Both the position numbers and the translations under genes were made by a program. A DNA stretch of 41,938 nt from Prevotella sp. (GTDB lineage: Bacteria; Bacteroidota; Bacteroidia; Bacteroidales; Bacteroidaceae). The notes under the pieces were generated by a model. It had not been told where the DNA came from. It ran no database searches and saw only the letters and a list, made by a program, of their open reading frames with translations. This document shows positions 11,533 through 41,247 of the stretch, in pieces (within the stretch, counting starts at the first letter, position 1; every line of letters starts with the position of its first letter). The stretch is taken from contig JAFSYY010000045.1 in the NCBI GenBank assembly GCA_017455845.1, forward strand, positions 1-41,938. Direction: 5' to 3'.

Positions 11533-11534
11533 TC

Positions 11535-11618
11535 GAGGTGCGAGGTACGAGGTGCGAGGTGCGAGGTGCGAGGTACGAGGTACGAGGTACGAGGTGCGAG
11601 GTACGAGGTGCGAGAATA
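11535..11618. repeat. Heptamer array between porin and hflX
   Basis: Eleven consecutive 7-bp units of GAGGTGC or GAGGTAC followed by one variant, filling almost the whole gap between the two genes and ending 16 bases before the hflX ATG. It is the longest array in the window, and no promoter is visible in the gap. Confidence 0.9.
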
Positions 11619-11633
11619 GAACTGTGAACTGAA

Positions 11634-19571: not shown

Positions 19572-22154
19572 TTAAAAGCCGGTATTCACCTTAGTCTTTG
19601 AGAAATAGAACTCACGGAGCGGTTTCTGCACAAGGTTGCCTTTCAGAGCAATGGTCTGCTGGAGACGGATGTCCTGCGACGAGGCTCCTATCTTGACGAT
19701 ATATTCTCCCGGGGCCACATTCCACCGACGCTGATCCTCATGGGTATAGTAGCCGAACTGCTCGGTATAGAGTGTTGCCTCTACGGTCTTGCTCTCGCCT
19801 GGCTGCAGCGACACGCGGGCGAAGCCCTGGAGTTGGATGGGGCGGATGGGCTGTTGGACGCTGGCAGGTGCCAGGTAGATCTGCACCACTTCGTCGGCCG
19901 CCGTCTTGCCGGTATTCTTGACCTCAAACGAGAGGTTGATGTCCTGGTCGGTCGTCATGGCTTCCTTGTCGGCCTTTAGGTTGCCATACTCAAAGGTGGT
20001 ATAACTCAGGCCGTAGCCGAAAGGCCAAGAAAATTTACTATTTGACGATTTACAATTTGACAATTTACTGTCTGACGATTTGCTATCTGCCATTTCAGCC
20101 GGATTATTGTAGCAAAGGGGCTCGTAGGTTTCCGCATTGGGATAACTGACTGACAGTTTGGCCGACGGCGACACCTTGCCAAAGAGGATGTCGGCCACGG
20201 CATTGCCTCCCTCCTCGCCCGGGTACCACGCCTGGATGACAGCGGCACACTTCTCGGCCAGCCCAGACACCACCTGTGCACGGCCGCCGAACATGACCAG
20301 CACCACGGGCTTACCCGTCTTGATCAACTCCTCTACGTATTGCTCCTGGCTGCCAGGCAGACGCAGACCCTTGCGGTCGCGGTTCTCGCCGCAGAGCATC
20401 ACGTTCTCGCCAACGGCTGCAATAATCACGTCGGCCTGCCGCGCCATCGCGAGGGCTTCAGCCTTGTCGGCCTTCTCGCCGGAGTGCACCTTACGGTGCA
20501 GGATCTCATACTCCCAGGCGCGGGCATCGCCGCCCTTGATGAAGTCGGTCTCTATCTCTTCGGTCCAGTCGCAGCCACGTGAATACAACAAGTTGAATGG
20601 AGCGGTTGGGGTGTTGGTTGTCTGGTCGTTCAGGCAGTTTTTCATACCCTCCAGAAGCGTCACGATGTGTGGTTTCTCTGAGGTATAGTCAACCTTCTTC
20701 CAGAAATACGACATGGCGGGATAGGTATAGTCGCCACACATGGCCCATATCGAGTTAGCGTTGGGGCCGGTGAGCAAGATGTTGAGGTTTGAGGTTTTTG
20801 ACTTGAGGTTTGAAAGCGGGAGAATGTCGTTGTTTTCGAGCAACACGACGCTCTGCGTGGCAATGTTGTAGGCCGTCTGCCGCTCTTCGGGCGTGTCGAG
20901 GACGATATGCTCCGTGCTGTAGAGGTAGGCGTCATTGTCGAAAAAGCCGGCTCTTAACTTGAAGCGCAACACGTCTTTCACGGCACGCTCGAAAGCCTCC
21001 GACCCCACAAGGCCCTGATCGATAGCCTGCTGTAGGTGCTCGTAGTTGGCACCGAAGGGGAAGTCCACGTCGTTGCCGGCATTGATGGCGGCAGCAGCCT
21101 TCTGTATGACGGCGGGAAAACCGCCGTCCACGGACGCAGAGTCGTTCGCGGCGGTGCTGTTGTCTGATTCATGAATATGGTTGACGGGCGCGGGCAACTG
21201 GTCGATGGCGGTGTAATCGCTCACTACCATGCCGTCGAAGCCGAGATAGTTGCGCAGGATGTCCTGCAGGATCCAACTGTTGGCCACGCAGTTCACCATC
21301 TCCTTTGCGTCAGCAGATTCTTGCGTCCCTTCGGTAGCAAGCGACCAGAGGTCGAGCGCTTCATTCTTCCCTCTTCCCTCTTCCCTTCTCATGGCATGAT
21401 AGCCTGGCATGAGGCACTTGCTGCCGGCCAGCCGGATCATCGCCTCATGGGGCATCAGTATCTCCTCCATCAGCACCTTCTCGTCGGCATCGCCACCGCC
21501 GCCATAGCCGAGGTAATGCTTTGAGCAGGCACCCACGCCTTTCTTCAAGTCGCCTTGTTGCAAGCCCTTGACGAAGGCCACGCCCATAGCAGCCGACAGG
21601 TAACCATCTTCGCCATACGACTCCTCCAGGCGGTTGAACGAGGGTATGCGGCACACATCGACCATTGGCGAGAGAGCCAGCACGCCGCCCATCTTGCGCA
21701 GGGCAGTGCTTGTCTGTCGCGTCTTCAGTTCGGCCAGTTCCGTGTTAAACGAGCAGGCCTGTCCTATCTGCTGCGGATAGATGGTGGCACCCAGCGTGTT
21801 GATGCCCGAGAGCACCTCTTCGTGGAACAGGGCGGGTATGCCGCTCGGCGTGTTCTCCTTGAGCCACTGCTGCACGGCGGCCACACGGTCGCGCACGTCG
21901 TTAGGATCGCGAGGCTGCTGCAGGCAGAACTGCGAGAAATGGCCGATGCCATTGGGTATCATTTCGTGGCACTTTGCCGTGTCCAACTGTCCTGCCTCGT
22001 CGAAGAGGTCGTCCATATACATGCTTCTCAGTTGTGCGATACGCTCCTCCTGCGACATCCTGTCGTAGAGTTCGTCAACGCGCTGTTCAAGGTCAACAGC
22101 CGTGTTACAGCCTGCAAGAAATACAGCCATGCCAATCATCAGTCTTTTATCCAC
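19572..22154 (-). CDS. Glycoside hydrolase family 3 lipoprotein (beta-glucosidase/xylosidase type)
   Basis: An 860-aa GH3 enzyme. It starts with GTG at 22154 after an AGGAAG, and a lipobox (MAVFLAGC) makes it a lipoprotein of the outer part of the cell. The N-terminal barrel has IPALFHEEVLSG, SKHYLGYGG and the nucleophile Asp in GFDGMVVSDYTA (about residue 310). The second domain and the fibronectin-like C-terminal domain (PFGYGLSYTTFEY) follow. Three repeat sites are read in frame: a 52-bp core with heptamers (21311-21390) between GYHAMRRE and MVNCVANSWIL, heptamers before NILLTGPNAN, and a Ser/Lys-rich insert before WPFGYG. Active-site motifs are intact. Substrate unknown. Confidence 0.93.
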   Translation of the reverse strand: MDKRLMIGMAVFLAGCNTAVDLEQRVDELYDRMSQEERIAQLRSMYMDDLFDEAGQLDTAKCHEMIPNGIGHFSQFCLQQPRDPNDVRDRVAAVQQWLKENTPSGIPALFHEEVLSGINTLGATIYPQQIGQACSFNTELAELKTRQTSTALRKMGGVLALSPMVDVCRIPSFNRLEESYGEDGYLSAAMGVAFVKGLQQGDLKKGVGACSKHYLGYGGGGDADEKVLMEEILMPHEAMIRLAGSKCLMPGYHAMRREEGRGKNEALDLWSLATEGTQESADAKEMVNCVANSWILQDILRNYLGFDGMVVSDYTAIDQLPAPVNHIHESDNSTAANDSASVDGGFPAVIQKAAAAINAGNDVDFPFGANYEHLQQAIDQGLVGSEAFERAVKDVLRFKLRAGFFDNDAYLYSTEHIVLDTPEERQTAYNIATQSVVLLENNDILPLSNLKSKTSNLNILLTGPNANSIWAMCGDYTYPAMSYFWKKVDYTSEKPHIVTLLEGMKNCLNDQTTNTPTAPFNLLYSRGCDWTEEIETDFIKGGDARAWEYEILHRKVHSGEKADKAEALAMARQADVIIAAVGENVMLCGENRDRKGLRLPGSQEQYVEELIKTGKPVVLVMFGGRAQVVSGLAEKCAAVIQAWYPGEEGGNAVADILFGKVSPSAKLSVSYPNAETYEPLCYNNPAEMADSKSSDSKLSNCKSSNSKFSWPFGYGLSYTTFEYGNLKADKEAMTTDQDINLSFEVKNTGKTAADEVVQIYLAPASVQQPIRPIQLQGFARVSLQPGESKTVEATLYTEQFGYYTHEDQRRWNVAPGEYIVKIGASSQDIRLQQTIALKGNLVQKPLREFYFSKTKVNTGF
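20034..20089. repeat. Heptamer array inside GH3 gene (TTTGACG type)
   Basis: Eight degenerate 7-bp units. The coding strand gives a Ser/Lys-rich linker (SKSSDSKLSNCKSSNSK) before the conserved PFGYGLSYT of GH3 enzymes. Confidence 0.7.
20784..20818. repeat. Heptamer array inside GH3 gene (GAGGTTT type)
   Basis: GAGGTTT, GAGGTTT, TTGACTT, GAGGTTT, GAAAGCG. Read on the coding strand as SNLKSKTSNLN, just before the ILLTGPNAN strand. Confidence 0.65.
21311..21390. repeat. 52-bp core repeat plus heptamers, in frame in the GH3 gene (copy 1)
   Basis: Core 21311-21362 contains CTTGC...GCAAG and CGACC-AGA-GGTCG hairpins and ends in AGCGCTTC. Heptamers TTCATTC, TTCCCTC, TTCCCTC, TTCCCTT follow. The GH3 gene reads it in the reverse direction, as EALDLWSLATEGTQESAD after EEGRGKN, where other GH3 enzymes have a short loop. 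Confidence 0.85.
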
Positions 22155-22191
22155 TTCCTAATAATTCTGTATTGATTAATATATGAAGATG

Positions 22192-22219
22192 CAAATTTAC
22201 GAAAAAATCTTGTAACAAA
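22192..22219 (-). promoter_or_regulatory. Possible promoter of the GH3 gene
   Basis: TAAATTTG at 22199-22192 on the minus strand, with TTTG at 22219-22216. The spacing of 16 is shorter than the usual 19-20, so this is tentative. Confidence 0.4.
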
Positions 22220-22256
22220 CGAGGGATTTTGGAGAATTAACACTAATCTGTGACTT

Positions 22257-22440
22257 GGTATCAAAACTTGGTATCAAAACAGTATCAAAGTCAGGCCGCC
22301 GGAGTATCGAGACTGTATACACTTTGTGTTCCGGCTGTATACAACTTGTATTCAGCCTGAATACAGTTTGTATTCGGCAGGAATACAAGTTGTATACAGC
22401 CGGAATACATTTTGTATTCGGGCTGAATACAAGTCAACTG
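22257..22440. repeat. Array of palindromic units with an exact 22-bp period (copy 2, inverted)
   Basis: ATACA-NNN-TGTAT type dyads begin at 22317, 22339, 22361, 22383 and 22405, with a half unit at 22427, always 22 bases apart. The GCCGCCGGAGTATCG border motif (about 22294-22309) precedes the array, whereas its complement follows copy 1, so the two copies are inverted relative to each other. Ahead of it are short GTATCAAAA repeats. Together with the 18-bp repeats at 22456-22572 this accounts for most of the 468-base gap between the GH3 gene and ispF, in which I see no convincing gene. Confidence 0.8.
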
Positions 22441-22455
22441 AACTTTTTCGGCGGA

Positions 22456-22572
22456 CGTAATGGCGACCGTGGCGGCAACCGTGAAAGCCGTGGCGGCAAC
22501 CGTGAAAGCCGTGGCGACCGTGAAGGCCGTGGCAACCGTGAAAGCCGTGGCGACCGTGAAGGCCGTGGCGGT
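22456..22572. repeat. 18-bp tandem repeat with RGG-like coding potential
   Basis: About six imperfect copies of an 18-bp unit (CGTGAAAGCCGTGGCGAC and variants). The plus strand reads GGNRESRGD-type repeats that continue to a stop at 22644, after VKVPDFGAGWRHQ. This looks like the disordered tail of an RNA-binding protein or DEAD-box helicase, but no folded domain precedes it. It could be a gene remnant or simply a tandem repeat. It overlaps the 3' end of ispF on the other strand. Confidence 0.55.
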
Positions 22573-22622
22573 CGCGTCGGCGGCAAGGTCAAAGTCCCCG
22601 ACTTCGGAGCAGGCTGGAGGCA

Positions 22623-23126
22623 TCAGGAGTCTGGCGACTGGTGAATACTTCTATGTTCTAATAAAGCAACGGCGTAGGCAGAGATGCCTTCCTGACGGCC
22701 CGTAAAGCCGAGCCGCTCGGTGGTTGTTGCCTTAATGGAGATGCAGTCTGGGTCGCATCCGATGATTTGTGCCATGCACTGCTGCATGGCGGGGATGTGC
22801 GGGTTCATCTTCGGCCGCTCGGCACAGATGGTGGCATCGATGTTTCCAAGGACATAGCCTTTAGTGGCGATGAGGTCAATGGTTTTCTTGAGAATCACCT
22901 TGCTGTCCATGCCCAGGGTGTCATTGCTGGTGTCTGGGAAGTGATAGCCAATATCGCGCATGTTAGCGGCACCGAGGATGGCGTCGCAGATGGCGTGAAT
23001 CAGCACGTCGGCATCGCTGTGGCCAAGAAGCCCCAGTTCGTAATCAATCTTGATGCCGCCCATCCATAGGTCGCGGCCAGCCACCAACCGGTGGACATCG
23101 TAGCCCATTCCAACTCTTATCTTCAT
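22623..23126 (-). CDS. ispF: 2-C-methyl-D-erythritol 2,4-cyclodiphosphate synthase
   Basis: A 167-aa enzyme of the MEP isoprenoid pathway, forming the cyclic diphosphate in the cytoplasm as a trimer. The N-terminal motif VGMGYDVHRL holds the metal ligands Asp and His; LLGHSDADVLIHAICDAILGAA, DIGYHFPDT and a late KATTTERLGFTGRQEGI are all typical. The last ten residues (EHRSIHQSPDS) extend beyond the usual end and overlap the 18-bp repeat frame on the opposite strand. It follows porV, an order I recall from Porphyromonas. The gap between the two genes is filled by a 52-bp core repeat. Confidence 0.95.
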   Translation of the reverse strand: MKIRVGMGYDVHRLVAGRDLWMGGIKIDYELGLLGHSDADVLIHAICDAILGAANMRDIGYHFPDTSNDTLGMDSKVILKKTIDLIATKGYVLGNIDATICAERPKMNPHIPAMQQCMAQIIGCDPDCISIKATTTERLGFTGRQEGISAYAVALLEHRSIHQSPDS

Positions 23127-23131
23127 AGCGG

Positions 23132-23187
23132 TAGCAAATATTTGCGTCCCTTCGGTAGCAAGCGACCAAAGGTCGAGCGCTTCACTC
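23132..23187. repeat. 52-bp core repeat between porV and ispF (copy 2)
   Basis: Almost the whole gap between the two genes. The core matches copy 1 at all but a few positions (TAGCAAATATTTGCG at the left, GACCAAAGGTC in the hairpin) and ends in AGCGCTTC with one heptamer, TTCACTC. Confidence 0.85.
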
Positions 23188-23188
23188 T

Positions 23189-24400
23189 TTACTTAAACAG
23201 GTCTTTCAAACCGTCCATGTCGAAGGCAAGGGTGAAGCGTAGGGTCTGGTCGAGAGGATTGCTCTGAGCAGTGGAGATGACGTAGCCCACATCGAGCGAG
23301 AAGACATTCATGCGGAAGCCGCCGCCCACGGTGAAATATTTTCGGTTGCCCTTCGACTCGGACTCATGGTGATAACCGGCACGGAGCGAGAACTGGTCGT
23401 GATAGACATATTCGGCACCTACGCTCCATTGTACCTCCTCCAACTCTTCCTTGAAGCCGCCAGGGGCATCGCTGAAACTGGTGAAGATACCCTTGATGCT
23501 CGACATGTCGGAATATTCCTCGCGCACATACTGTTGATACTCACCTTCGTGATAGAGGTCGGCATTGCCTCCAAGACGGTCGTCGATATACTGCTGCTGG
23601 GTGGGCACGGTGGGCACGAGCAGTTTGTTGGCATCGGCCGCAATGGTAAAGCGGTTGTACTCATCAAACGGAATCATGAGCGATGCGCCCAGGCGCAGGT
23701 TGGCAGGAATAAACTGGCTTTCCTCATCGCCATAGAACGAAATCTTGCTACCAATGTTGGTGGCGGTAAGACCCAGTCCTAACTGGCACTCACGGTTGCC
23801 CAGCATGATATAGTTGTTGTAGTACATGGCAATGTCGGCGGCAAAGGCTGAGGCAGGCTTCGACCCCTCGCTGAAGTAGTCGTAGCGCAGGTCGCTATAG
23901 ATCCATCGCAGGCCGACACCGAGCGAGAAGGTCTCACTCAACATTCGCGAGTAAGCCACGTCGAGCGACATCTCGTAAGGCTTCACCGTCATTGAGGCAT
24001 CCTCGCCGACGCCGTCGGTATATACCTCACCGAGGGAGAAATAGCGCAGAGAACCAGACAATGCGCCGTAGTCGCCGATGCGATAGTAGCCGGCAACGTA
24101 GGCCAGGTCGATGTCGTTGACCAACTGTCGGAGCCAGGGGGTGTAGTTGAGAGCCACACCGGCACGGCTGATGCAGAAAGGGTATTTGGCCAGGTTCCAA
24201 TACTGCGAGTTGACGTCGGGATCGGTGGCACAGCCCACATCACCCATACCTGCAGAACGTGCATCGGGAGCGATGGTCTGCGAGATGACGGCATGGTCAA
24301 CAGGGTTGTACGTGGTAGTCTTAGAGTCTTGAGCCGAGGCAGTGCCAACGGCTGTTAGCCAACAGGCGGTTGCAAAAAATATGTTTTTATACTGTTTCAT
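23189..24400 (-). CDS. porV: Type IX secretion system outer-membrane protein PorV
   Basis: A 403-aa FadL-like beta-barrel that carries cargo from the type IX translocon to the PorU sortase. The signal peptide ends near VGTASA. Family landmarks are APDARSAGMGDVGCATDPD with NSQYWNLAKYPF, and YTPWLRQLVNDIDLAYVAGYY. Later strands contain VGAEYVYHDQFSLRAGYHHE and VGGGFRMNVFSLDVGYVIS. It lies 24 bases behind porU, so the two are very likely cotranscribed. Length is normal and no repeat insert is present. Confidence 0.94.
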   Translation of the reverse strand: MKQYKNIFFATACWLTAVGTASAQDSKTTTYNPVDHAVISQTIAPDARSAGMGDVGCATDPDVNSQYWNLAKYPFCISRAGVALNYTPWLRQLVNDIDLAYVAGYYRIGDYGALSGSLRYFSLGEVYTDGVGEDASMTVKPYEMSLDVAYSRMLSETFSLGVGLRWIYSDLRYDYFSEGSKPASAFAADIAMYYNNYIMLGNRECQLGLGLTATNIGSKISFYGDEESQFIPANLRLGASLMIPFDEYNRFTIAADANKLLVPTVPTQQQYIDDRLGGNADLYHEGEYQQYVREEYSDMSSIKGIFTSFSDAPGGFKEELEEVQWSVGAEYVYHDQFSLRAGYHHESESKGNRKYFTVGGGFRMNVFSLDVGYVISTAQSNPLDQTLRFTLAFDMDGLKDLFK

Positions 24401-24424
24401 CGTTTAAATAAACGCGGCTTCGCC

Positions 24425-27400: not shown

Positions 27401-28018
27401 CTCTGGCTGCATGGCACCGCCGTAGCCATAGATTTTCACTTTCGACAGACTGGAGAAACCGGCTTGGCGTACCAAGGCTTCTGTCAACTGATAGATTCCC
27501 GTCTCCGGTACCCGTATCTTGGCCCATTGTCCAGTGGCCAGCACAGAGTGGTCGGCATAGCGTCCATCGCTGGCAGCAGCACGGCGGGCGGCACTGATCT
27601 CATGCTTGACAGGTTTGATGTTCAGCATGAAACTGACCAGTTTCTGGTATTTCCCATTGCGGAACACCAGCGGTACGAACGATATGTAGAGTGTACCAGT
27701 CTTTCGTGATACACCGACGTGCTGACTGACCTCGGGCATGTCTGGCAGTGCATCGGACGTAATCTGTCCGTAGCGTGTAATGTCGGCCTTCGACATATCC
27801 ATGAACTCTGGATAGTAGATGCTCACCTCATAGTCGTAGGCAGCGTAGTCGCGTCCCAGCGGCAGTGAGTAATGAAAACGCGGCAACACAGAGTCTATCC
27901 TCACTTCGTTGGCTGTAAGGTTGAAAAACTCTTGTGTGCCGTTGGCAGCAGACCCTTGTGCTGAAGTGCCTGCCATAAAGCCCATAAAGGCTGTCAGTAT
28001 GATCAGTAATCGTTTCAT
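24425..28018 (-). CDS. porU: Type IX secretion system sortase PorU
   Basis: A 1197-aa C25-family cysteine peptidase that removes C-terminal sorting signals from type IX cargo and attaches the proteins to A-LPS at the cell surface. After the signal peptide and a beta-rich N-terminal region comes the gingipain-like domain, with the catalytic His in VMNYSGHGR (about residue 698) and Cys in WVTASCDIMPF (about 734). The C-terminal part is beta-rich and ends with a FlgD-like domain (TRFVISHDRTGSEMDVELEI, DWDLTTGSGSRLRTGVYFYR). That end resembles a sorting domain itself. The FAH-family gene ends 7 bases upstream, and porV follows downstream. No repeat insert is seen. Confidence 0.95.
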   Translation of the reverse strand: MKRLLIILTAFMGFMAGTSAQGSAANGTQEFFNLTANEVRIDSVLPRFHYSLPLGRDYAAYDYEVSIYYPEFMDMSKADITRYGQITSDALPDMPEVSQHVGVSRKTGTLYISFVPLVFRNGKYQKLVSFMLNIKPVKHEISAARRAAASDGRYADHSVLATGQWAKIRVPETGIYQLTEALVRQAGFSSLSKVKIYGYGGAMQPEKLTGDYLASTDDLKEVPSITINGRRLFHAVGPVNWSTKKAVARERNACSDYGYYFITESDEEPLAVDSATFCGAFYPGPNDYHDINEVDNYSWFHGGRNLYNSEKLTIGTDRVITMPGTQQPTNRQTTAQLNVNLSFDATFEATVSINGTELGKIVPNSSLFSNKTGKPADSYAVATQANWTFAVPETQMDSESNKVVIKQTSGGIVRIDYVSFAYTYAKPMPALSTASFPVPEYVYRITNQDHHADPQADMVIIIPTTQVFVSEAERLKTLHETYDGMRVNLVPADELFNEFSSGTPDVNAYRRYMKMLYDRAETEADMPRYLILFGDGAWDNRMLTSDWRNTSPDNFLLCYESENSFSETKCYVSDDFFCLLDDGEGSNVLTDKIDAAVGRLSARNSAQAKVLVDKIYAYRTNEYAGAWQNTLCFLGDDGDQNRHMQDAEAVLDTVLHYNTAYNIKKIYWDAYTRVTSATGNSYPDVTRLILQQMQAGALVMNYSGHGRMDAISHEYVVTLPDFAKATSLRLPLWVTASCDIMPFDGQDENIGETAMFNEKGGAIAFYGTTRTVYASYNRPMNQSFMKYVLSTDDNGRRLSIGEAAMLAKNDFTAGTTEMVTNKQQYSLLGDPALVLAAPTLTATIDEINGEPVGGSPKQLKAGSIATVKGHIPDHADFNGVATFTVRDIEETISGKMNNTTETSTAITFTDRPNTIYSGSNSVTNGEFSFTFSVPKDISYSDNTGLFLVYAVNVDKTLEAHGENDNFTLSGYVDTVNDEIGPSIYCYLNSDAFVNGDEVNSTPYFYAEINDKDGINVAGSGIGHDLELIIDGNMNKTYNLNEYFQYDFGDYQRGTVGFSIPELTDGQHRLLFRAWDMLNNSSTVELSFVVNSKQEPSLINVICTQNPASTSTRFVISHDRTGSEMDVELEIFDTSGRKLWGRTETGLPTDHTYTIDWDLTTGSGSRLRTGVYFYRILVSSNGSKQASQARKLIVLGNN

Positions 28019-28025
28019 ATCGCGT

Positions 28026-28643: not shown

Positions 28644-28664
28644 GGGCGGCTCACGGTCACTTTA

Positions 28665-30659: not shown

Positions 30660-30680
30660 TCTCTATTAAGATTATATGAA

Positions 30681-33188
30681 TTACTTGACGACAATTTTCT
30701 TGCCGTTGACAATATACAGCCCCTTCTTAAGTGAAGAGGGAAGAGGAAAGAGGGAAGCGCTCGACCTTTGGTCGCTTGCTACCGAAGGGACGCAAGAATT
30801 TGCTTCCGCACTGGAAATCCTGCGGCCTTGCAGGTCGTAGATGCTCATTGCTCTCTCTTCATTATTCATCAGTGTAGCGTCTATGCCACTGACAGTGCTG
30901 TCGTCAACGATGATTGTCAGACGGGCTTCGCCACTCTGGTTCTTGGCTATGGGAAGATAGCATCGGTTGGCGGGAATGGTGCCACTGATTGTCTTCACAA
31001 ACTCGTTGTTGTAGAGCACGTAGATGTTGTTTTCGGCAGTGAGGGCGGACACGGCGGTAGCCGTGGCGCAGCCCTGCAACAGGTTGTTGTCAAAAGTATT
31101 GACCTCACCCTGCCAGGCTTCGGCAATAACCATATCCTCCATGGGCTCGCTGGCATAGAGCAGCACGGCCACGCCCTGTGGGATGTACTGAATCTTATCG
31201 GCAGTGACCTCAGTGCCGTTCACCCCCGTAACAATGTAGGCATCGATGCCTTCCGGGGTAGCCAGGTCCTCAGCGGCATAGTAGGTGGCCCAGTTGTTTT
31301 CGAAGAAGGAGACACTGAGTTCACGCATAATCTGGAAGGAGTAGGTCACCGTGCCTTGATAGTTGCCAATACCTGTAAAAGTAACAGTTGCTGTACCTAC
31401 GTTGGTGTTGTTGTCGTATTCAACGGTAAAGTCCTTGTCCTCTACCAGTTCAACCTCGTCACCGCTGATGTCGTCACGGAGGCCGTACATGCCCTCAAGG
31501 ATTATTGCCTCACCAGTGTAGAGGAAGTCGTCGCCTTCTGTCCACAGCATATCGTCGGTAAGTGTCTTAGCCTCAATGGTGAAGGTGACGTTGACGGGCT
31601 CTGAGGAATAGTTGGCGTCGCCCTGCGTCAACTGTACATAGTAATCTCCTGCGTTGGTGGGAGATGCTTCGAGTGCATTGCTGCCCTTGTTGCGTTCGGA
31701 CTCACTGTTATAATATGTAATGACGAGCGTGCCGTTGTCAACAGAACCGCCTGTATAGTCCTGGGCTTGTCCGTTGTAGGTGACAGTCATGTCCTCGCCA
31801 GTGATGGTGGCTGCTGCGGCTACAATCTGGAAAGTCTTGCTGGGATCCACCTGCCCGCCATAGAAGTTTATGCCTTTGGAGATAAGCGTTACTGATGCAG
31901 TGCCTACGTTGGTGTTGGAGGCGTAGCGGGCATCGTAATCAGAGGCATCGACAGCATTACCCTTGAAAGTAACGGTGATAGCAGGAGTGATGGCCTCACC
32001 AGTAAACGTCTGGTCGGCAATGTCGGCAATGACAACTTGCGAGAAGTCGGCCTGAAAAATAGTGAAGTTGCTGCGAGCGGTGGTGCCAAGGAAGTTGTCG
32101 GACTCGGCAATAGTGGCCCTGATGGCGTATGAGCCGGCGTTTGAGGGAACGTCAGAAATCCAGTTCTCTGAAGTTTCAGATTGTCGCGAATATTCGTATG
32201 TCACAGTACCGTTGCCGGTGTTGCCGTTCACCACAGGCGTATTGGCATCGTCGCCGTAGGTCCAGCCTTCGAGGGTTACAGAGACGTTGCCAAGTTCTGC
32301 CTTGGCAATGGTAAAGTCGGCAGTAGCCTCACCAGCCTGGTAGTTGTCAGACTCAGCCACCGCAGCCCTGACGGTATACTCGCCGGCATTGGTGGGAACA
32401 GTAGTGGTGTAAGTGTTGTCGGCGGCATCCTTAACCTTATAGTAATAAGTGATGATTACATCAATGTCCTCCAGGCCCTCAGTGTAGGGCACATTCTCTT
32501 GTTCATCGTAGTCGCCGTATGTCCAACCATCAATACCCACCGAGAAATCGAGCGCTGCCTTGTTGATGGTAAAGGTGGCGGTGGCAGTACCGGTATAGAT
32601 GCCCTGGCCTGTCACTGTGACGGTACCAGTACCGGCATCGGTGTTATCAGTGTATTCGAAGGTATAGTCAGTGGACTGGGTAAGGGTAGTATTTCCCAAG
32701 ACGACACTGCTCACAGCAGGCTCCTTGGCCTGGCCGTCATAGGTAAACGAGGACTCGTCCAGCGTCACTACAGCATCAGCGATTGAGATACGGCTCTGGA
32801 ATTTGGCCACCACCTCAACATCATAGTCAGCATCGGGCATGGAAAATGTGTAGGTGGTATCGCCGCTGGGGTCTGCCGTGGCATCCGTGGCAGTCACGGC
32901 GATGCTGTTTTCCATGCTGGGAGCCTGAAGGCGGCCCTGGGCCAGATTACCGCTAATAGTCCGCTCGGCCGTGATAAAATCCACCGTGATGTAATTACCG
33001 TCTGCCGGTGTCACGGTCAGCGTGCACAGACCAGAAGCCTCTGACACCTGCGATGTCACTGTACCGGCGGCGTTGTTCTCTGTACCATTCAACTGTTTGA
33101 TGATGGTTACCGTGCCACCAGCCCAAACATTTGTTGCCATCAGCATGGCAGTAATACACAAAATAATGATTTTCTTTTTGAGTTCCAT
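30681..33188 (-). CDS. Large secreted protein with MBG/Ig-like repeats and type IX-like tail (835 aa)
   Basis: Signal peptide (KIIILCITAMLMATNVWAG), then the same N-terminal module as the 664-aa protein. Next come several beta repeats: EPAVSSVVLGNTTLTQSTDY, NTDAGTGTVTVTGQGIYTG, then ITGEDMTVTYNGQAQDYTG. These resemble MBG or Ig-like adhesin repeats. The C-terminal region has NNWATYYAAEDLATPEG and IYVLYNNEFVKTISGTIPAN, also found in the third protein. The tail IYDLQGRRISS ... KKGLYIVNGKKIVVK is split by a 52-bp core with heptamers (30731-30805), read as ANSCVPSVASDQRSSAS. Likely surface or extracellular; function unknown. Confidence 0.78.
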   Translation of the reverse strand: MELKKKIIILCITAMLMATNVWAGGTVTIIKQLNGTENNAAGTVTSQVSEASGLCTLTVTPADGNYITVDFITAERTISGNLAQGRLQAPSMENSIAVTATDATADPSGDTTYTFSMPDADYDVEVVAKFQSRISIADAVVTLDESSFTYDGQAKEPAVSSVVLGNTTLTQSTDYTFEYTDNTDAGTGTVTVTGQGIYTGTATATFTINKAALDFSVGIDGWTYGDYDEQENVPYTEGLEDIDVIITYYYKVKDAADNTYTTTVPTNAGEYTVRAAVAESDNYQAGEATADFTIAKAELGNVSVTLEGWTYGDDANTPVVNGNTGNGTVTYEYSRQSETSENWISDVPSNAGSYAIRATIAESDNFLGTTARSNFTIFQADFSQVVIADIADQTFTGEAITPAITVTFKGNAVDASDYDARYASNTNVGTASVTLISKGINFYGGQVDPSKTFQIVAAAATITGEDMTVTYNGQAQDYTGGSVDNGTLVITYYNSESERNKGSNALEASPTNAGDYYVQLTQGDANYSSEPVNVTFTIEAKTLTDDMLWTEGDDFLYTGEAIILEGMYGLRDDISGDEVELVEDKDFTVEYDNNTNVGTATVTFTGIGNYQGTVTYSFQIMRELSVSFFENNWATYYAAEDLATPEGIDAYIVTGVNGTEVTADKIQYIPQGVAVLLYASEPMEDMVIAEAWQGEVNTFDNNLLQGCATATAVSALTAENNIYVLYNNEFVKTISGTIPANRCYLPIAKNQSGEARLTIIVDDSTVSGIDATLMNNEERAMSIYDLQGRRISSAEANSCVPSVASDQRSSASLFPLPSSLKKGLYIVNGKKIVVK
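30731..30805. repeat. 52-bp core plus heptamers, in frame inside a probable sorting tail (copy 3)
   Basis: The core (30754-30805) is in the reverse orientation relative to the other three copies. Heptamers GTGAAGA, GGGAAGA, GGAAAGA, GGGAAGC lie on its AGCGCTTC side. The host gene reads it in the other direction from copy 1, yet both reading frames stay open. Confidence 0.85.
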
Positions 33189-33239
33189 ATTATCTTGTTT
33201 TTTATTATTTTTATTCTTGTTAGTGACTATTCCTTGTTG

Positions 33240-36125: not shown

Positions 36126-36150
36126 AATGGTTATGTTTTTTTCTTGTAGT

Positions 36151-37065
36151 TCAAAGCGGCAGAGTCATCACGAAGCGTGCTCCACCAGAGTAGGCAGTGT
36201 CGAGTACGATGTCGCCCCCAAGACGCCGTGCGATGCTGCGAGCCACGGTGAGGCCGATGCCCGTGCCGTCGTAGTAGTCGTCAAGTTGTACAAACTCGTC
36301 GAAGATGTGCTCGGCCTCCTCGGGCGGCACGCCGATACCCGTATCTTCGACAGTGAAGGCTATCTGCTGCTCCGTTGCCATCGACACACGCAGCACCACA
36401 CGGGCTTTCTCTGTCACGGCGGCGGCACCACCGGCGGCCTCGGCGGGATGGGTGAACTTCATGGCGTTGTCCAGGAGCAGTGACAGGGCACGCGTGGCCT
36501 GTTGCAGGTTGGTATGCATCATGGCCATGTCGGCTCCTTCGCCCAAGTCGAGGTCGAAGGTGAGGTGTGTGGCCAGTGTGATACGGCTCTCGTCGGCGGC
36601 CTGTGCTGCTATCTGCACGGCAGGCACGTCGTCGTTACGCTCCAACTCGTCGCTGCTATTGGCATCAGCCAGTTCCAGCATCTTCTTTACCAGTGAGGTG
36701 ATACGCTCGGTATTTTCGCCAATACCCTTGGTCACCTCCTCCTGCATGGCCTCGTCGAGTTCCATGCCAGGGGTGGTGAGAATCTGGGTAAAACCGTTCA
36801 GGATATTGAGCGGTGTGCGTATCTCGTGGGAGATTTGCTGGATGAAGTTTGTTTTCATCTGTGAGGCTTCCTCGGCACGATGTCGCGCAATCTCCAACTG
36901 TTTGTTGGTTTCCTCCAGTTCGTGGTAGGTTTCCTCCAGTTTGTCATAAAGCAGGAGCGACTCCTGGTAGCCCTCCGACATGATGTCGAAGTTATGCTCC
37001 AGGGCCTCGTAGTCTTCACGCAACTGCTGCAGTTCCTCGCGTAGTTTCTGTGTGTCGTCGGTCAT
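36151..37065 (-). CDS. Soluble histidine kinase in a partner-switching operon
   Basis: A 304-aa protein without membrane segments. Residues 1-70 form a long coiled coil (LREELQQLREDYEALEHN, DKLEETYHELEETNKQLE). The phosphoacceptor His80 is in QISHEIRTPLN. The ATPase part has an N-box (LLLDNAMKFTH), G1 VEDTGIGVPPEEAEHIF and G2 DGTGIGLTVARSIARRLGG. No receiver domain or response regulator gene is seen nearby. It is the last gene of a tight four-gene unit with a PP2C phosphatase, an RsbW-like kinase and a STAS protein; the ATG lies 4 bases after the STAS stop. Partner unknown. Confidence 0.9.
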   Translation of the reverse strand: MTDDTQKLREELQQLREDYEALEHNFDIMSEGYQESLLLYDKLEETYHELEETNKQLEIARHRAEEASQMKTNFIQQISHEIRTPLNILNGFTQILTTPGMELDEAMQEEVTKGIGENTERITSLVKKMLELADANSSDELERNDDVPAVQIAAQAADESRITLATHLTFDLDLGEGADMAMMHTNLQQATRALSLLLDNAMKFTHPAEAAGGAAAVTEKARVVLRVSMATEQQIAFTVEDTGIGVPPEEAEHIFDEFVQLDDYYDGTGIGLTVARSIARRLGGDIVLDTAYSGGARFVMTLPL

Positions 37066-37069
37066 GGGG

Positions 37070-37381
37070 CTATGCCTGCTTTTGTTCTACGGTCATAAAT
37101 TTGGTGAAGCCCGTCATGGCGAGCACCTTGTAAATCTCGGGACTGACGTTGGTAATCTTGAACTGTCCCTTCTGCATCATTACCTTCCGCATGGTTTTCT
37201 GTAGGATACGCAGCCCCGAACTGGCCATGTAGTTCAGTTCGGTGCAGTCCATTTCCAGATTGATTCCCGGTTCGCTGAACACTGGCTCAATATCTTGTTC
37301 AAACTGTGGGGCATTCATTGTGTCGATGCGCTTGTCGGTCTTAATGATGGTCTTGCCACCTTCTTTCAAAATCTGTGTCAT
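37070..37381 (-). CDS. STAS-domain anti-sigma factor antagonist
   Basis: A 103-aa single STAS domain, as in RsbV or SpoIIAA. The conserved phosphorylatable serine lies in YMASSGLRILQ (Ser54 or Ser55). ATG at 37381 is chosen. A longer frame would use a TTG at 37399 inside the heptamer array, which is less likely. In partner-switching systems the unphosphorylated form binds the RsbW-type kinase and frees its other partner; the SpoIIE-type phosphatase of the same operon would activate it. Confidence 0.9.
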   Translation of the reverse strand: MTQILKEGGKTIIKTDKRIDTMNAPQFEQDIEPVFSEPGINLEMDCTELNYMASSGLRILQKTMRKVMMQKGQFKITNVSPEIYKVLAMTGFTKFMTVEQKQA

Positions 37382-37390
37382 ATCTCTTAC

Positions 37391-37432
37391 AATTTTCAAT
37401 ATTCAATATTCATTTTTCAATCTTCAATTTTC
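37391..37432. repeat. Heptamer array between the RsbW-like and STAS genes
   Basis: Six 7-bp units of the AATATTC / AATTTTC type fill the gap between the two genes, so the array lies inside the operon mRNA. Confidence 0.75.
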
Positions 37433-37435
37433 AAA

Positions 37436-37846
37436 CTAAACAATGTCTTTTTTCATTGTCAGAAGGTTCTTGCCCTCCAGTCGCTGATAAGTAACTTTGT
37501 TCATGATATTCTTCACGATATAGATGCCCATGCCGCCCAGGTCGCGCTCGGCGGGGTTGACATCCATGTCGGTGTCCTCCTTGAGGGTCGGGTCGAAGGC
37601 CTGGCCTTGGTCGCTCAACACAAAGGTGAGTTCCTTGCCGTCGCTCTCGGCCGTGAGTTCAATGCAGGCCTCCGTACCTTCGGGATAGGCATAGAAGATG
37701 ATGTTCGACACCATCTCCTCCAGCACCAGGTTCAGGTTCATCTGCAGTTCCATGTCCAGCGACAGTTCCTCACCGATCTCCTCGATGAACTGTGCCACAT
37801 GGTCCAGTTCTTCAACTTGGTTTTTAATGCATATTTCCTTTCTCAT
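37436..37846 (-). CDS. RsbW-like serine kinase (anti-sigma factor type)
   Basis: A 136-aa HATPase_c_2 protein. The N-box LVLEEMVSNIIFYAYP, G1 SDQGQAFDP and G2 GGMGIYIVKNIM are clear. Such kinases phosphorylate STAS antagonists and sequester a partner protein. Bacteroidetes lack a SigB-type factor, so the output partner here is not known; it could be another protein. The gene is 15 bases downstream of the phosphatase gene. Confidence 0.9.
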   Translation of the reverse strand: MRKEICIKNQVEELDHVAQFIEEIGEELSLDMELQMNLNLVLEEMVSNIIFYAYPEGTEACIELTAESDGKELTFVLSDQGQAFDPTLKEDTDMDVNPAERDLGGMGIYIVKNIMNKVTYQRLEGKNLLTMKKDIV

Positions 37847-37861
37847 AATGTTATAGGTTTA

Positions 37862-39976
37862 TTAGTTATTTCCTTTAATGATAAAGCACATCATGGTGAG
37901 GTCGTCGTTGGGTTCGGCCCCGTCACGGTGTTTTTCCACTTCGGCACTGAGCATCTCAATGGTCTGGCGGCTGTTGACGAAGGGCGTATTTTCCAGTAAT
38001 TCCAACAGACGCTCGTCTGAGAACTGTTCCTGCTGCTGGTTCTCGGCTTCGTTCAGACCGTCGGTATAGATGAAGAGCGGCTTTTCGCTGATGTTGTCTA
38101 TCTGCTCACCCACGTAGTCCAGTCCTGGCCACAGGCCGATGGGCGCATTAGACTCCATCTCTAGGAACTGGCCTGCGAGCACGGGTGGGTTATGACCGGC
38201 GTTGCAGAAATCCAGGTGTCCTGTCTGCAGGTCTACCAGGCCGATGAACATGGTGATGAACATGCCCTGCTCGTTATCCTCGCTGAGTTCGGCGTTCAGG
38301 TGGGTGGCAATATCTGCCGGCATCATCTGCTGTTTGGCCAGTGTGCGGAACAGACGGGTGGCCTGTGCCATGAAGAGCGAGGCGGGCACACCCTTGCCAC
38401 TGACATCACCCAGGGCGAAGTAGAGTTTCTGGGTCTCTTCTATGAGCAGGTAACTGTACATGTCGCCACCAACTTCCTTGGCTGGTGTCATCGAGGCATA
38501 CAGATCCAGGTCGGGACGGTTGGGGAAGATGGTGGGCACCATCGACTGCTGGATGTCGCGGGCGATGCGCAGTTCGCTCTCTATGCGCTCCTTGGCTGCC
38601 GTTGTCTCTTCTATCACCTCGTTGGCAGCCTGCAGGTCGCTATATGCCGTCTGCAACTCACTGTGTGCCTGACGCAGTTTGCGAGCAGCACGGATGCGGA
38701 AGAACAGGAATATAGCCAGTGACACGACGATAAGCAAGGCCACGGCGATAATCCATCGTAACTGGGCCTGCTCCTGCTCCATGACCATTCGCTCGTTCTC
38801 GCGTTCCATTTCAGTGAGTCCGAACATGGTGTTCATGGCGTTGAGGTTCCTCTTCGTGTCCTGTAGGTTGAGTGAGTCGCTGATTAAATAAACTGTACGG
38901 AAGAGGTCGGCAGCCTCCTTGTATCGACCCAGATGGTTGAAAATCTCTGCCCGCTGGTAGTTTACGTTGACCACGCCCGACTGGTCGCTGTTGTCCGACA
39001 TCAGGCGAAAGCGCCTTTCATTATATTCGAGCGCTTGCTGATAATCCCTCTTCAAAATGGCCAACTGGGCCTTGTAGTAGAGTAGGGTACGTCCGCGGTA
39101 ACTCTCTTCCGACGGGGTGACCAACTCCATGTTATCGAGCATCTCGGCGGCACGGTCCGTCTGTCCCTGACCGATGGCAGCCTGTGCGCAGGCCAGATAG
39201 TAGTACGACCAAAAGAGATCGGCCGTTGACGTGGCCTCCAGTTGATGTTGGTGTATAAAAGCCTTTAGCGTTTGTTCCCAAGAGATAATTTGCTCGTCCA
39301 TCTTCGTGTATTCTCTCATTGAGTTCAGAGCATCGCAGTAATAGCCATAGGCATCAAGCAGCACGGGAAGTATAGGGTTAATCGTTGAGAGTATTTTTAT
39401 GCTCTTCTCAAACGATTTGGTGCTCTCTTCAAAGTCGCGCAGGTTGCTGTAAGCAGTACCCATGATACAGTAGGCCAGTCCCATGCCATAAGAATTGTTG
39501 TGCTTCTTGGCATCCTCGTACATGGCCTTTGTCTCCATGATGCCCTCACCGTTCTTGCCCATAAACACATAGGTGTTGGCAATGTGTGCCCAAACTTCGT
39601 AATAGTGCACACGTATGGTGTCAATCTTATTGAGGCGCTCCATGTAACGTGGGATGGCATTGAAGACGGAGTCGTTCATGTCGTTGTTATAGAACAGCAC
39701 AGCCTTTAATGATATGGCATATATCTCTTGAAGAATGCTGTCCTGACTACGGGCTTCATGCATGTAGTCATCGATGCAGCGCATCTGGTAGTTCACATCG
39801 TCGGAGTCCTGACTGAGGAAATAAAGTTGCTCAAGGGTTACCAGACGGTCGCCACCCTTCTGCGTATTCAGTCGCTGGCGCAAATCATCAGATGCGTCAG
39901 CATATACGTCACCCTTCCCTACGAGCATCAATACTGCCGAGAGAAGAATAATATTTATGGTCCTTAATCCAGTCAA
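37862..39976 (-). CDS. TPR protein with membrane helix and SpoIIE-type PP2C phosphatase
   Basis: A 704-aa sensor phosphatase. The start codon is TTG at 39976. No ATG upstream is in frame without a stop, and the next ATG would destroy the signal peptide (LRTINIILLSAVLMLVGKG). A periplasmic TPR-like helical region of about 370 residues follows, then one membrane helix (WIIAVALLIVVSLAIFLFF, about 408-426) and a coiled coil. The C-terminal phosphatase has IARDIQQSMVP, KEVGGDMYSYLLI, LGDVSGKGVPASLF, NAGHNPPVLAG and NDDLTMMCF, with the metal-binding Asp residues present. It would dephosphorylate the STAS protein of the operon in response to a periplasmic cue. Confidence 0.92.
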   Translation of the reverse strand: MTGLRTINIILLSAVLMLVGKGDVYADASDDLRQRLNTQKGGDRLVTLEQLYFLSQDSDDVNYQMRCIDDYMHEARSQDSILQEIYAISLKAVLFYNNDMNDSVFNAIPRYMERLNKIDTIRVHYYEVWAHIANTYVFMGKNGEGIMETKAMYEDAKKHNNSYGMGLAYCIMGTAYSNLRDFEESTKSFEKSIKILSTINPILPVLLDAYGYYCDALNSMREYTKMDEQIISWEQTLKAFIHQHQLEATSTADLFWSYYYLACAQAAIGQGQTDRAAEMLDNMELVTPSEESYRGRTLLYYKAQLAILKRDYQQALEYNERRFRLMSDNSDQSGVVNVNYQRAEIFNHLGRYKEAADLFRTVYLISDSLNLQDTKRNLNAMNTMFGLTEMERENERMVMEQEQAQLRWIIAVALLIVVSLAIFLFFRIRAARKLRQAHSELQTAYSDLQAANEVIEETTAAKERIESELRIARDIQQSMVPTIFPNRPDLDLYASMTPAKEVGGDMYSYLLIEETQKLYFALGDVSGKGVPASLFMAQATRLFRTLAKQQMMPADIATHLNAELSEDNEQGMFITMFIGLVDLQTGHLDFCNAGHNPPVLAGQFLEMESNAPIGLWPGLDYVGEQIDNISEKPLFIYTDGLNEAENQQQEQFSDERLLELLENTPFVNSRQTIEMLSAEVEKHRDGAEPNDDLTMMCFIIKGNN

Positions 39977-40013
39977 TGCCTTTTATACATTTCTTTGATG
40001 CAAATCTTGGGTG

Positions 40014-40045
40014 CAAAGTTACAAAAAAAGTCGATATTGGCCAAA
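40014..40045 (-). promoter_or_regulatory. Promoter of the partner-switching operon, overlapping the tsf terminator
   Basis: On the minus strand TTTG at 40045-40042 and TAACTTTG at 40021-40014 with 20 bases between. The first element lies in the loop of the tsf terminator. Expected transcription start near 40007, about 30 bases before the TTG start. Confidence 0.6.
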
Positions 40046-40058
40046 CCAATATCGACTT
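40021..40058 (-). terminator. Terminator of the rpsB-tsf unit
   Basis: A perfect 13-bp stem pairs 40028-40040 with 40046-40058 around a 5-base loop, followed on the minus strand by seven Ts (complement of 40023-40029). Confidence 0.9.
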
Positions 40059-40081
40059 AATTTATTGTTAGTAATGAAAAA

Positions 40082-41077
40082 TTACTCTGCAACGAGTGTG
40101 AAGCGACGGAAAGCAGTGATGGCGAGTTCCTTGTCCTGAGCCTTCACCCACTCTGCAACGGTCATCTTGTCGCCGTCGCCGAACTGGAATTCCTGGTCTA
40201 CCAGGCAACTCTCCTTCAGGAACTTTTGCACACGGCCCTTGGCAATACCCTCAATCATGGGCATCTTCAACTGGGCCTCGCCTTCGGCCTTTGCCTCGGC
40301 AATGATCTTGCGGGCTTCGTCGGCCTGCTCCTTGGTAATCCAGCCCTTGGACATGTTGCTTTCGATGTGGTCTTCGCTGTCCACGTGGGCAGGGTTGATA
40401 CCAGCCTTCTTCAGTTTCATGTCCACGAACTTCTGTACCTGCTCCAATTTCGACTTCTCCACGGCCGTCTTATACTCCTCGTCCAGGATCTTCTGGTCAA
40501 CACTCTTGGCATCGAGGGCCACGGGCTTCATGGCAGCCACCTGCATGGCCAGTTTGTGGCCAATCTCCTGGGCTTCCTTGTTGGTCTGAACCATGGTGCA
40601 GAGCATGTGCTTGCCCATGTGGTCGTAGATCTCAATGTTGTCGCCTTCAAGGGTGAGGTAGCCGTCGAGTTCCATCTTCTCGCCGGTGATGCCTGAGCGC
40701 TGTGTCACAGCCTCCTGAGCCTTCTGTCCGTTGATGTCGAGTTCTTTCACCTCGTCCAAGGTCTTGCACTTGGCTGCCACAGCGGCATCGAGGATGCTCT
40801 TGGTCAGGGCGATGAAGTCGGCACCGTTGGCCACGAAGTCGGTCTCGCACTTCAGGGCGATAGTGGCGGCGAAGCCATTCTCGCACTTCACCAGCACGCA
40901 GCCGTTGGAGGTCTCGCGGTCGCTACGCTTGGCAGCGATAGCCAGTCCGCGCTCGCGGAGCAGTTCCTTGGCATGGTCGAAGTCGCCCTCGGCCTCGGTC
41001 AGTGCCTTTTTCACATCGGCCAGACCAGCACCGGTCATGGCACGCAGTTTCTTGATATCGTCAATTGAAATTGCCAT
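40082..41077 (-). CDS. tsf: Translation elongation factor Ts
   Basis: A 331-aa guanine nucleotide exchange factor for EF-Tu. The N-terminal UBA-like part has IDDIKKLRAMTGAGLADVKK, then KELLRERGLAIAAKRSDRET, and the core has FAATIALKCETDFVAN, the signature that contacts EF-Tu. Length is within the normal range for Bacteroidetes. It lies 150 bases downstream of rpsB, the usual order, but here the gap is filled with repeats (41082-41222). A strong terminator follows. Confidence 0.97.
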   Translation of the reverse strand: MAISIDDIKKLRAMTGAGLADVKKALTEAEGDFDHAKELLRERGLAIAAKRSDRETSNGCVLVKCENGFAATIALKCETDFVANGADFIALTKSILDAAVAAKCKTLDEVKELDINGQKAQEAVTQRSGITGEKMELDGYLTLEGDNIEIYDHMGKHMLCTMVQTNKEAQEIGHKLAMQVAAMKPVALDAKSVDQKILDEEYKTAVEKSKLEQVQKFVDMKLKKAGINPAHVDSEDHIESNMSKGWITKEQADEARKIIAEAKAEGEAQLKMPMIEGIAKGRVQKFLKESCLVDQEFQFGDGDKMTVAEWVKAQDKELAITAFRRFTLVAE

Positions 41078-41081
41078 TGTT

Positions 41082-41151
41082 ATTTTCGATTTACTGATTT
41101 TCGATTTTCGATTTACTGATTTTCGGTTTACTTTTTCGATTCACGATTCAC
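41082..41151. repeat. Heptamer array between rpsB and tsf (GATTTTC type)
   Basis: Ten 7-bp units (ATTTTCG, ATTTACT, GATTTTC twice, GATTTAC and variants, ending in GATTCAC twice), directly upstream of the tsf ATG. Confidence 0.8.
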
Positions 41152-41170
41152 TGCACGTCTGTTTTGGCGG

Positions 41171-41247
41171 CAGCAAATTCTTGCGTCCCTTCGGTAGCAA
41201 GCGACCAAAGGTCGAGCGCTTCACTATTCACTCTTCAGTTTTCACTT
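41171..41247. repeat. 52-bp core repeat plus heptamers between rpsB and tsf (copy 4)
   Basis: Core 41171-41222 matches copy 1 except for two bases seen by eye. The heptamers TTCACTA, TTCACTC, TTCAGTT, TTCACTT (41220-41247) run into the coding end of rpsB and supply its last residues (VKTEE) and stop codon. Confidence 0.85.

Follow-up and report, generated by a model that had tools for sequence, protein, structure and literature searches.

A two-hairpin repeat of Prevotella genomes joined at TT, a probable very small mobile element

A stretch of 41,938 nucleotides from a Prevotella sp. assembly (GCA_017455845.1, contig JAFSYY010000045.1; the whole stretch is called the window below) carries five copies of a short repeat that consists of two abutting hairpins. 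Comparison of these with copies from the rest of the home genome, from relatives and from IMG/VR contigs suggests that the repeat is probably a very small, non-autonomous mobile element that is recognised by its structure, is joined at TT without duplication of the target, probably by way of single-stranded DNA, and is moved by an enzyme acting in trans. At the level of sequence comparison, its boundaries, target, precision, orientation, nesting and tolerance of coding sequence are established.

Architecture and insertion target

The element reads CTT-stem1-AAG, CG-stem2-CG and AGCG, that is, two abutting hairpins and a four-base tail, and is preceded by TT. It is 29-42 nt long, mostly 39, 37 or 30 nt; the stem feet and the tail are constant, while the stem sequences vary yet stay mostly Watson-Crick paired. 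A total of 229 matches of CTTGCGTCCCNNNNGTAGCAAGCG were gathered from the home genome, relatives, IMG/VR and named genomes, and 190 of these are distinct elements with a full tail and 60-base flanks; among the 190, the second hairpin takes 56 forms, most of them palindromic. A scan that was blind to the stems (two abutting hairpins, then CGAGCG) returned 186 sites, 174 of them distinct, in 1.67 Mb of element-enriched DNA versus 5 in the reversed control, and revealed that the first hairpin is variable as well (CTTTGCAGAGCAAAG, CTTGGACGAGCCAAG and CTTCGACAAGCGAAG, among others). Since both hairpins vary, the family is defined by CTT-stem-AAG, CG-stem-CG and AGCG, and the fixed-sequence core by which a preliminary description of the window had identified the repeat gives way to a structural identity. 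Thirty of the 223 first hairpins have no full second hairpin and CGAGCG tail within reach. An autonomous parent carrying a gene between its hairpins was considered and rejected: the next 70 bases, inspected by eye, show mutated, nested or truncated tails and no separated partner.

Pairing was surveyed in 126 distinct hairpins, those with at least two mispairs having been removed beforehand. The 618 pair cells comprise 581 Watson-Crick, 5 G-T, 3 A-C and 29 other combinations, and 20 of these 29 are T-C or C-T at one fixed position of hairpin 2. All four Watson-Crick pairs are represented at the variable stem positions and, with intermediate wobbles nearly missing, both arms appear to change together. 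G-T is not in excess over A-C, leaving nothing that marks one folding strand, and the few wobbles and the lack of a G-T excess would favour a palindrome that is maintained at the level of DNA. Folding energy of RNA or DNA alone was uninformative as evidence (z about -1.9 to +0.3). Two variant forms were also seen. A longer one, TTCTTTCTTCGCTTTGCTTCGAAAGCGTCTCC..GGAGCCGAGCG, occurs in the congener G117 (G117:C1, e.g., 467398-467444), where matches are divided 18 vs 5 between the strands with overlaps counted. At L133 (about 3866-3990 in reverse-strand coordinates), units of hairpin 1 and hairpin 2 stand head to tail in tandem, with GATTA/GATCA joints replacing the AGCG tail.

The ends of the element were fixed from the sequence left at sites that lack it. 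These sites yield a 39-nt insert (e.g., 21320-21358) in place of the 52-bp unit of the preliminary description, in which the outer GCGGNAGC and CTTC are parts of a separate repeat, made of a leader, GCGGNAGCAAATT, and CTTCACT heptamers, that is also found without the insert. TT lies directly 5' of 186 of the 190 main-family elements, which were found without requiring it, and of 187 of the 191 in a wider set; empty-site pairs, frames and flanking positions were tallied from a 193-entry set in which one L110 site stands in three overlapping registers. Outside heptamer context (n = 135), T occupies position -2 in 132 elements and position -1 in 135 but position +1 in only 5, and the other flanking positions are less strict than the preceding TT. 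Tandem repeats resume in phase across the insert, lags of 7, 14 and 21 being found in 27, 20 and 28 elements versus about 1 each in shuffled left-right pairs, while a few other lags, including 9 and 18, are seen in 1 to 6 elements. Pairs of element and empty site (n = 527; not independent, most being from arrays or repeats) have a gap of 0 in 341 cases, 7 in 110, 14 in 60 and some other value in 16. The target-site duplication that marks DDE-type miniature inverted-repeat transposable elements was not found, given the gap-0 joins and cross-insert lags that stand out only at multiples of the array period. An exact join was also observed outside arrays (TTCTCCCCCTAAGTT to AGGGGGAG, L201), as were nesting within the hairpin loop of another family member (L211, L067, L086) and mixed and inverted clusters of elements. 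Seven of the 190 elements have an inverted repeat of at least 8 bp across the junction, compared to 0.75 for shuffled pairs and 0 or 1 where the junction was shifted; for repeats of at least 6 bp the counts are 19 of 190, 3.6, and 8 at each shifted junction. As read from these comparisons, the element is inserted directly 3' of TT, in either orientation, without target duplication or loss, and has entered protein genes, heptamer arrays, the loops of hairpins and other family members.

Orthologous genes provide the sites in which the insert can be seen against its absence. A 994-aa gene on a 129.5-kb IMG/VR contig (L054), for which no Pfam or PHROGs family match was found, is extended by the element by 39 nt, or 13 codons, in frame. 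A relative on another IMG/VR contig (L364; 73% identity by tblastn, 82% in the alignment) lacks the element and has the same join, CTGCACGTT to TCCTTCA; the core occurs elsewhere on that relative's own contig (L055, L088). The alignment shows a gap of 22 residues rather than 13, because a separate palindrome of ~24 nt (CCGGCAACCTGCAAGAGGTTGCCGG, L054 about 2400-2430), perhaps another small insert, lies beside the element and is absent from L364. At the codons that hold copy 1 in the GH3 gene of the window, congeners variously lack any insert (L253 and others) or carry heptamers alone (L249), heptamers and leader without the element (L248) or unrelated heptamers (L251), and the full composite is found in the window. 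The peptide added there is absent from all 15 other GH3 loci recovered by motif, of 29 fetched, all from the same genus, so that the preliminary description's view of it as an insert survives comparison with orthologues. The HflX insert site is a loop of variable length among congeners.

Copies in the window, in genes and in other repeats

The preliminary description had placed four copies in the window (21311-21362, 23132-23183, 30754-30805 in reverse, and 41171-41222), and inspection of each site confirmed them, although a fifth, 30-nt copy was overlooked (Table 1). The motifs assigned to all four, CTTGC...GCAAG, CGACC-NNN-GGTCG and AGCGCTTC, hold except that copy 2 begins TTTGC; heptamers, likewise assigned to every copy, adjoin copies 1, 3 and 4, whereas copy 2 has about one unit. 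Peptides are read as had been claimed, EALDLWSLATEGTQESAD in the 860-aa GH3 protein and ANSCVPSVASDQRSSAS in the 835-aa protein, whose C-terminus has a weak match, below the Pfam cut-off, to a Por secretion tail. At copy 4, the stop codon of the rpsB-like gene falls within the heptamers. A 27-nt core with at most 3 mismatches has 4 matches in the window versus 0 in 100 dinucleotide shuffles. An Rfam search of 21200-23300, covering copies 1 and 2 only, returned no curated family, the sole overlap being tfoR over copy 2 (15.5 bits vs a gathering threshold of 70, E 1.6). Between the GH3 and ispF-like genes, a near-perfect palindrome of ~100 bp with TGTATTC/GTATAC motifs (22317-22417) attracts spurious microRNA matches from Rfam. 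The GH3 protein contains two more repetitive stretches, SNLKSKTSNLN and DSKSSDSKLSNCKSSNSKFS, which by eye resemble in-frame tandem arrays.

Table 1. Copies of the element in the window and the features that adjoin them
Feature	Position	Strand	Remarks
Element copy 1	21320..21358	+	39 nt; hairpins CTTGC..GCAAG and CGACC-AGA-GGTCG, AGCG tail; within GH3 gene 19572-22154 (-)
Degenerate leader GCGTCAGCAGATT of the leader-heptamer repeat hosting copy 1	21307..21319	+	
Heptamer array adjoining copy 1	21359..21393	+	CTTCATT/CTTCCCT units; limits approximate
Element copy 2	23141..23179	+	39 nt; first base C changed to T; preceding TT changed to TA
Surroundings of copy 2			gap between porV-like 23189-24400 (-) and ispF-like 22623-23126 (-), filled by copy 2
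Leader GCGGTAGCAAATA at copy 2	23128..23140	+	
Element copy 3	30758..30796	-	39 nt; in frame near the C-terminus, 835-aa gene 30681-33188 (-)
Leader GCGGAAGCAAATT at copy 3	30797..30809	-	
Heptamer array adjoining copy 3	30730..30757	-	limits approximate
Element copy 4	41180..41218	+	39 nt; between rpsB-like 41228-41845 (-) and tsf-like 40082-41077 (-)
Leader GCGGCAGCAAATT at copy 4	41167..41179	+	
Element copy 5	11919..11948	-	30 nt; other stems: CTTAGCAGAGCTAAG CGGCATAGCCG AGCG
Host gene of copy 5, HflX-type GTPase	11634-12995	+	copy in frame; inserted in phase in CACTCTT array
Leader GCGGTAGCAAAT of the repeat hosting copy 5	11889..11900	+	

Further copies were found in the home genome, which is 68% complete at 2.43 Mb in 124 contigs, as would be expected of a dispersed repeat: the core of the preliminary description at no more than 3 mismatches occurs 19 times versus 0 in the reversed control, and the pattern TTCTTN{8,17}AAGCGN{6,20}CGAGCG has 54 matches versus 0. 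Some home copies lie less than 100 bases from contig ends (C15, C18, C28), and the elements may complicate gene calling and assembly. Among 398 genomes of the same genus, 270 have at least one pattern match, the maximum being 134 (overlapping matches counted, e.g., in G117), and 76 have at least 20 by hand tally, with no control above 2 on a strand. Since controls also reach 2 on a strand, 0-2 matches per genome represent the chance level. Across the order, 36 of 295 genomes match the pattern; both stems are paired by eye, besides home, only in G572 (7 copies; a genome from another taxonomic family) and in one of two matches in G488 (a genome from the same taxonomic family). Pairs of copies 2.7 kb apart in G572 were rejected as element-flanked units, as no sequence is common to the pairs. 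Among the matches listed, named hosts are by title mostly ruminant-gut Prevotella or Prevotellaceae assemblies, and the isolates are Xylanibacter brevis ATCC 19188 and Prevotella sp. ne3005, to which the title of L188 adds Prevotella sp. MA2016. IMG/VR contributed 52 element-bearing stretches from contigs that may include prophage or host DNA.

A frame was counted as open if it ran for 60 codons or more on each side of the element. By this measure, 53 of the 182 elements that could be tested (29%) lie in open frames, compared to 57% of 3680 random positions, indicating that genes are avoided. Thus, the in-gene repeat of the preliminary description is one that genes tolerate but not one that is mainly coding. 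The tolerance itself, claimed there for a dispersed hairpin-forming repeat, is borne out by open-frame copies in both orientations and in five of the six frames, the unused frame holding TAG in the main family. A length that is a multiple of three was found in 48 of the 53 open-frame copies versus 81 of the 129 others (Fisher p = 1.3e-4); selection for the reading frame is visible. A copy in a gene would be retained if it falls in a tolerant loop and contributes only whole codons, none of them a stop. Intragenic elements add peptides of 10 or 13 residues to enzymes and to the IMG/VR contig gene, and are in this way a source of new loops. Avoidance of open frames, together with the intergenic positions of copies 2 and 4, is what might be expected of a selected structural signal, such as a terminator or a processing or repair site, that is held in place and is not a mobile insert. 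However, the exact empty sites in orthologous genes already strain such an explanation, and nesting in the loops of other elements, both orientations and coding positions speak against it as well; we regard it as highly improbable.

The repeats in which the element is found are abundant in their own right. The leader has 68 matches at home versus 0 in the control, and 14 of the 68 carry the element when the places are compared (7 of the 31 listed). With its CTTCACT heptamers, the leader (GCGGNAGCNAATTCTT) forms a high-copy repeat of its own (e.g., L380, L397), sometimes in inverted pairs a few tens of bases apart. An 11-copy subfamily at home lies in CCCCTCCCCTT/GAGGGGAGGGG-type palindromes in all 7 copies with flanks inspected, two of which are at contig ends with identical sequence. 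The CCCCTCCCC...GGGGAGGGG palindromes are another dispersed repeat, the loop of which is a frequent landing site (L287 1150-1400, L296 1433-1655, L125, L285). Because the element occurs within leader repeats and one palindrome type, part of its amplification at home may be that of composites. This lends weight to an explanation without any transposition of its own, in which replication slippage and recombination, acting on heptamer arrays and palindromes, duplicate an old pair of hairpins along with the larger repeats that contain it; spread within composites is indeed likely for the 11-copy subfamily, and the 14 leader-heptamer repeats that carry the element point the same way. Yet the 135 elements outside heptamer context share only the preceding TT and the lack of T after, and the L054/L364 join is exact in unique gene sequence. 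We therefore consider this explanation doubtful for the element.

Arrays of period 7 with at least three units have 21 matches in the window versus 0.1 expected from Markov shuffles (the long array at 11533-11640 being counted three times), whereas periods 5, 6 and 8 to 25 have 0 to 2 each. Arrays with many different units are scattered across the window (e.g., 11533-11640, 13306, 15289, 15448). Samples of 20 kb yielded 28 such arrays in 10 high-copy versus 9 in 10 zero-copy congeners (p = 0.045). The arrays, present in zero-copy congeners too, are thus a more general trait of the genus; they often serve as landing sites and do not need the element in order to arise. A seven-base target duplication was rejected as the origin of the arrays, given that 129 of 190 elements have no cross, left or right 7-mer match and that arrays also occur in element-free genomes. 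An excess of heptameric simple sequence repeats in bacteria, with polymerase slippage proposed, has been reported (PMC4692102), and TAACTGA repeats are a further case of bacterial heptamer arrays (PMC4679880). The arrays that host the element are of the same kind, the element itself being a non-tandem insert in them.

Candidate machinery and routes of spread

Mobility as a process, a single-stranded route and a factor in trans are what we infer from these data. Since no transposase was found to accompany the element, a mobilising factor that acts in trans is the natural guess, as it was in the preliminary description. Such an enzyme would identify the element as a folded single strand, from its pair of stems and their constant feet, and would join it at TT, probably where DNA is single-stranded (gaps on the lagging strand, loops of hairpins, tandem arrays that have slipped), much as in HUH single-strand transposition.

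Several findings weigh against this proposal. No mobilising gene was found with the Y1 and RVT_1 families that were tried. The search for Y1 transposases, including those associated with repetitive extragenic palindromes (REPs) and termed RAYTs, used PF01797 at E<=1e-3 and covered the home genome, 32 element-bearing genomes and the 398 congeners. A Y1 match was absent from 20 of 76 high-copy genomes, some of them 97-100% complete (G401 99%, G435 100%), and only 2 of 31 Y1 loci of 1.9-3.4 kb (L217, L237) hold a stem-verified element, about the number expected from density. Three joined-flank scans of viral contigs returned 0 empty sites, and protein relatives of viral-contig genes provided one that is clean (L054/L364) and one that is not clear-cut (L091); the empty sites all come from comparisons across species, contigs or paralogous repeats, and none from strains. 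In addition, many of the copies may have been carried along in larger composites (the leader-heptamer repeat or the CCCCTCCCC palindromes) instead of inserting by themselves. Single-stranded targets are suggested by loops and arrays only, and mobility is read from comparison of sequences, movement itself not having been observed.

A more specific possibility is that a REP- or REPIN-like element is moved in trans by a RAYT, i.e., a Y1 HUH transposase. Hairpins, the lack of target duplication, a short, fixed, one-sided target and mixed and inverted clusters all fit, and Y1 transposases are commoner in high-copy genomes (56 of 76, hand tally) than overall (196 of 398), occurring in 20 of the first 32 element-bearing genomes. 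On the other hand, the 20 high-copy genomes without a Y1 match count against it, as does the rarity of the element at Y1 loci (two more, L243 and L246, have loose 4-edit matches), whereas GTAG REPs are, according to PMC3733652, often near RAYT genes. The ends of the element are also CTT and AGCG rather than GTAG or CGTC. A RAYT is thus neither an obligatory nor a flanking partner, and we think its involvement rather unlikely. The sole Y1 transposase gene found at home (L020 898-2004, 368 aa) contains internal tandem 30-nt units (SVVTQAPYVH).

Spread could instead be mediated by RNA, with a folded transcript being reverse-spliced or reverse-transcribed into DNA. Exact, duplication-free insertion after T and a last base G are formally like intron reverse splicing, and structure is conserved over sequence. 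However, RVT_1 is no commoner in high-copy (11 of 21, one below the Pfam cut-off) than in zero-copy (14 of 21) near-complete genomes, and five high-copy genomes (G032, G206, G269, G281, G352) have neither RVT_1 nor Y1. Further, G-T pairs, of which drifting RNA helices would give many, are few and not in excess over A-C. With a reverse transcriptase not associated with the element in these 42 genomes, it was set aside as a partner, and an RNA route seems quite unlikely. Because the profiles may have missed a protein or a gene may have been lost, neither enzyme class is absolutely excluded; neither is obligatory. Tentatively, and as an idea that we consider possible rather than probable, the element may stand for a kind of mobile DNA that is inherited as a fold together with about 14 constant bases in the feet and tail. 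Such DNA would be moved by strand-transfer machinery that is neither Y1 nor reverse transcriptase, possibly the replication machinery at single-stranded TT sites, in the same process that would build the genome-wide 7-nt arrays.

Comparison with known systems

The Prevotella element and two other groups, the small dispersed repeats (SDRs) of cyanobacteria and the double-hairpin elements of fungal mitochondria, look alike and may be analogous. SDR1-8 of Nostoc punctiforme, reportedly described by Elhai and colleagues in 2008, are said to be 21-27 nt long, to form hairpins with compensatory changes, and to lie in tandem heptamers and in their own copies; RNA-mediated spread is said to have been proposed for them, and no transposase is known for them. 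By that definition, the Prevotella element resembles SDRs: it is shorter than 50 nt, occurs dispersed in many copies, forms hairpins with compensatory changes, and is found both inside tandem heptamers and inside copies of itself. It differs in its phylum, its two hairpins with fixed feet, its length of 29-42 nt, its TT target and its additional occurrence on IMG/VR contigs, the likeness being one of description and not of sequence; moreover, insertion phase and exact empty sites have been measured for it. The double-hairpin elements of fungal mitochondria, reportedly described by Paquin and colleagues in 2000, share with it that two adjacent hairpins make up the whole element. The Prevotella copies, for which no search of mitochondrial DNA was made, are in bacterial genomes and IMG/VR contigs, and this likeness too is descriptive. 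The mitochondrial elements are short, mostly intergenic and thought to be potentially mobile (PMC10085805, PMC2800124, PMC5910586). GC clusters of yeast mitochondrial DNA, such as GC42, are palindromes of about 40 nt with rapid turnover, merger and shuffling, for which the mechanism is debated and an RNA route has been considered (PMC4478555). The Prevotella element is a palindromic insert of similar size without target duplication.

Rickettsia palindromic elements lie inside genes, are read in frame and are longer than the Prevotella element. The likeness to them drawn in the preliminary description is valid for behaviour, i.e., in-frame insertion inside protein genes, but not for the ends. 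In R. conorii these elements end in CGTC (PMC3733652), which is at neither end of the Prevotella element (CTT/AGCG) and opens the inner hairpin 2 in some variants, the comparison being by end motif and not by alignment. REPs and REPINs with their RAYTs are short palindromic repeats, presumed mobile through single-strand chemistry (PMC3116915, PMC3733652), and REPs are defined by a GTAG or CGTC tetranucleotide tag at one end of the palindrome (PMC3733652). The Prevotella element has no GTAG tag, its ends by empty sites being CTT... and ...AGCG, has no flanking Y1 gene, and combines free stem sequence within one genome with a TT target. No description of it was found in the titles and abstract openings of open-access literature on Prevotella or on small palindromic, heptamer or double-hairpin repeats; this is weak evidence of absence, as subscription papers are mostly outside that scope. 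Work on how SDRs, Rickettsia palindromic elements and mitochondrial double hairpins move has so far lacked a bacterial system in which element boundaries are exact, the target follows a rule, empty sites are available and hosts are in culture. The Prevotella element offers all four.

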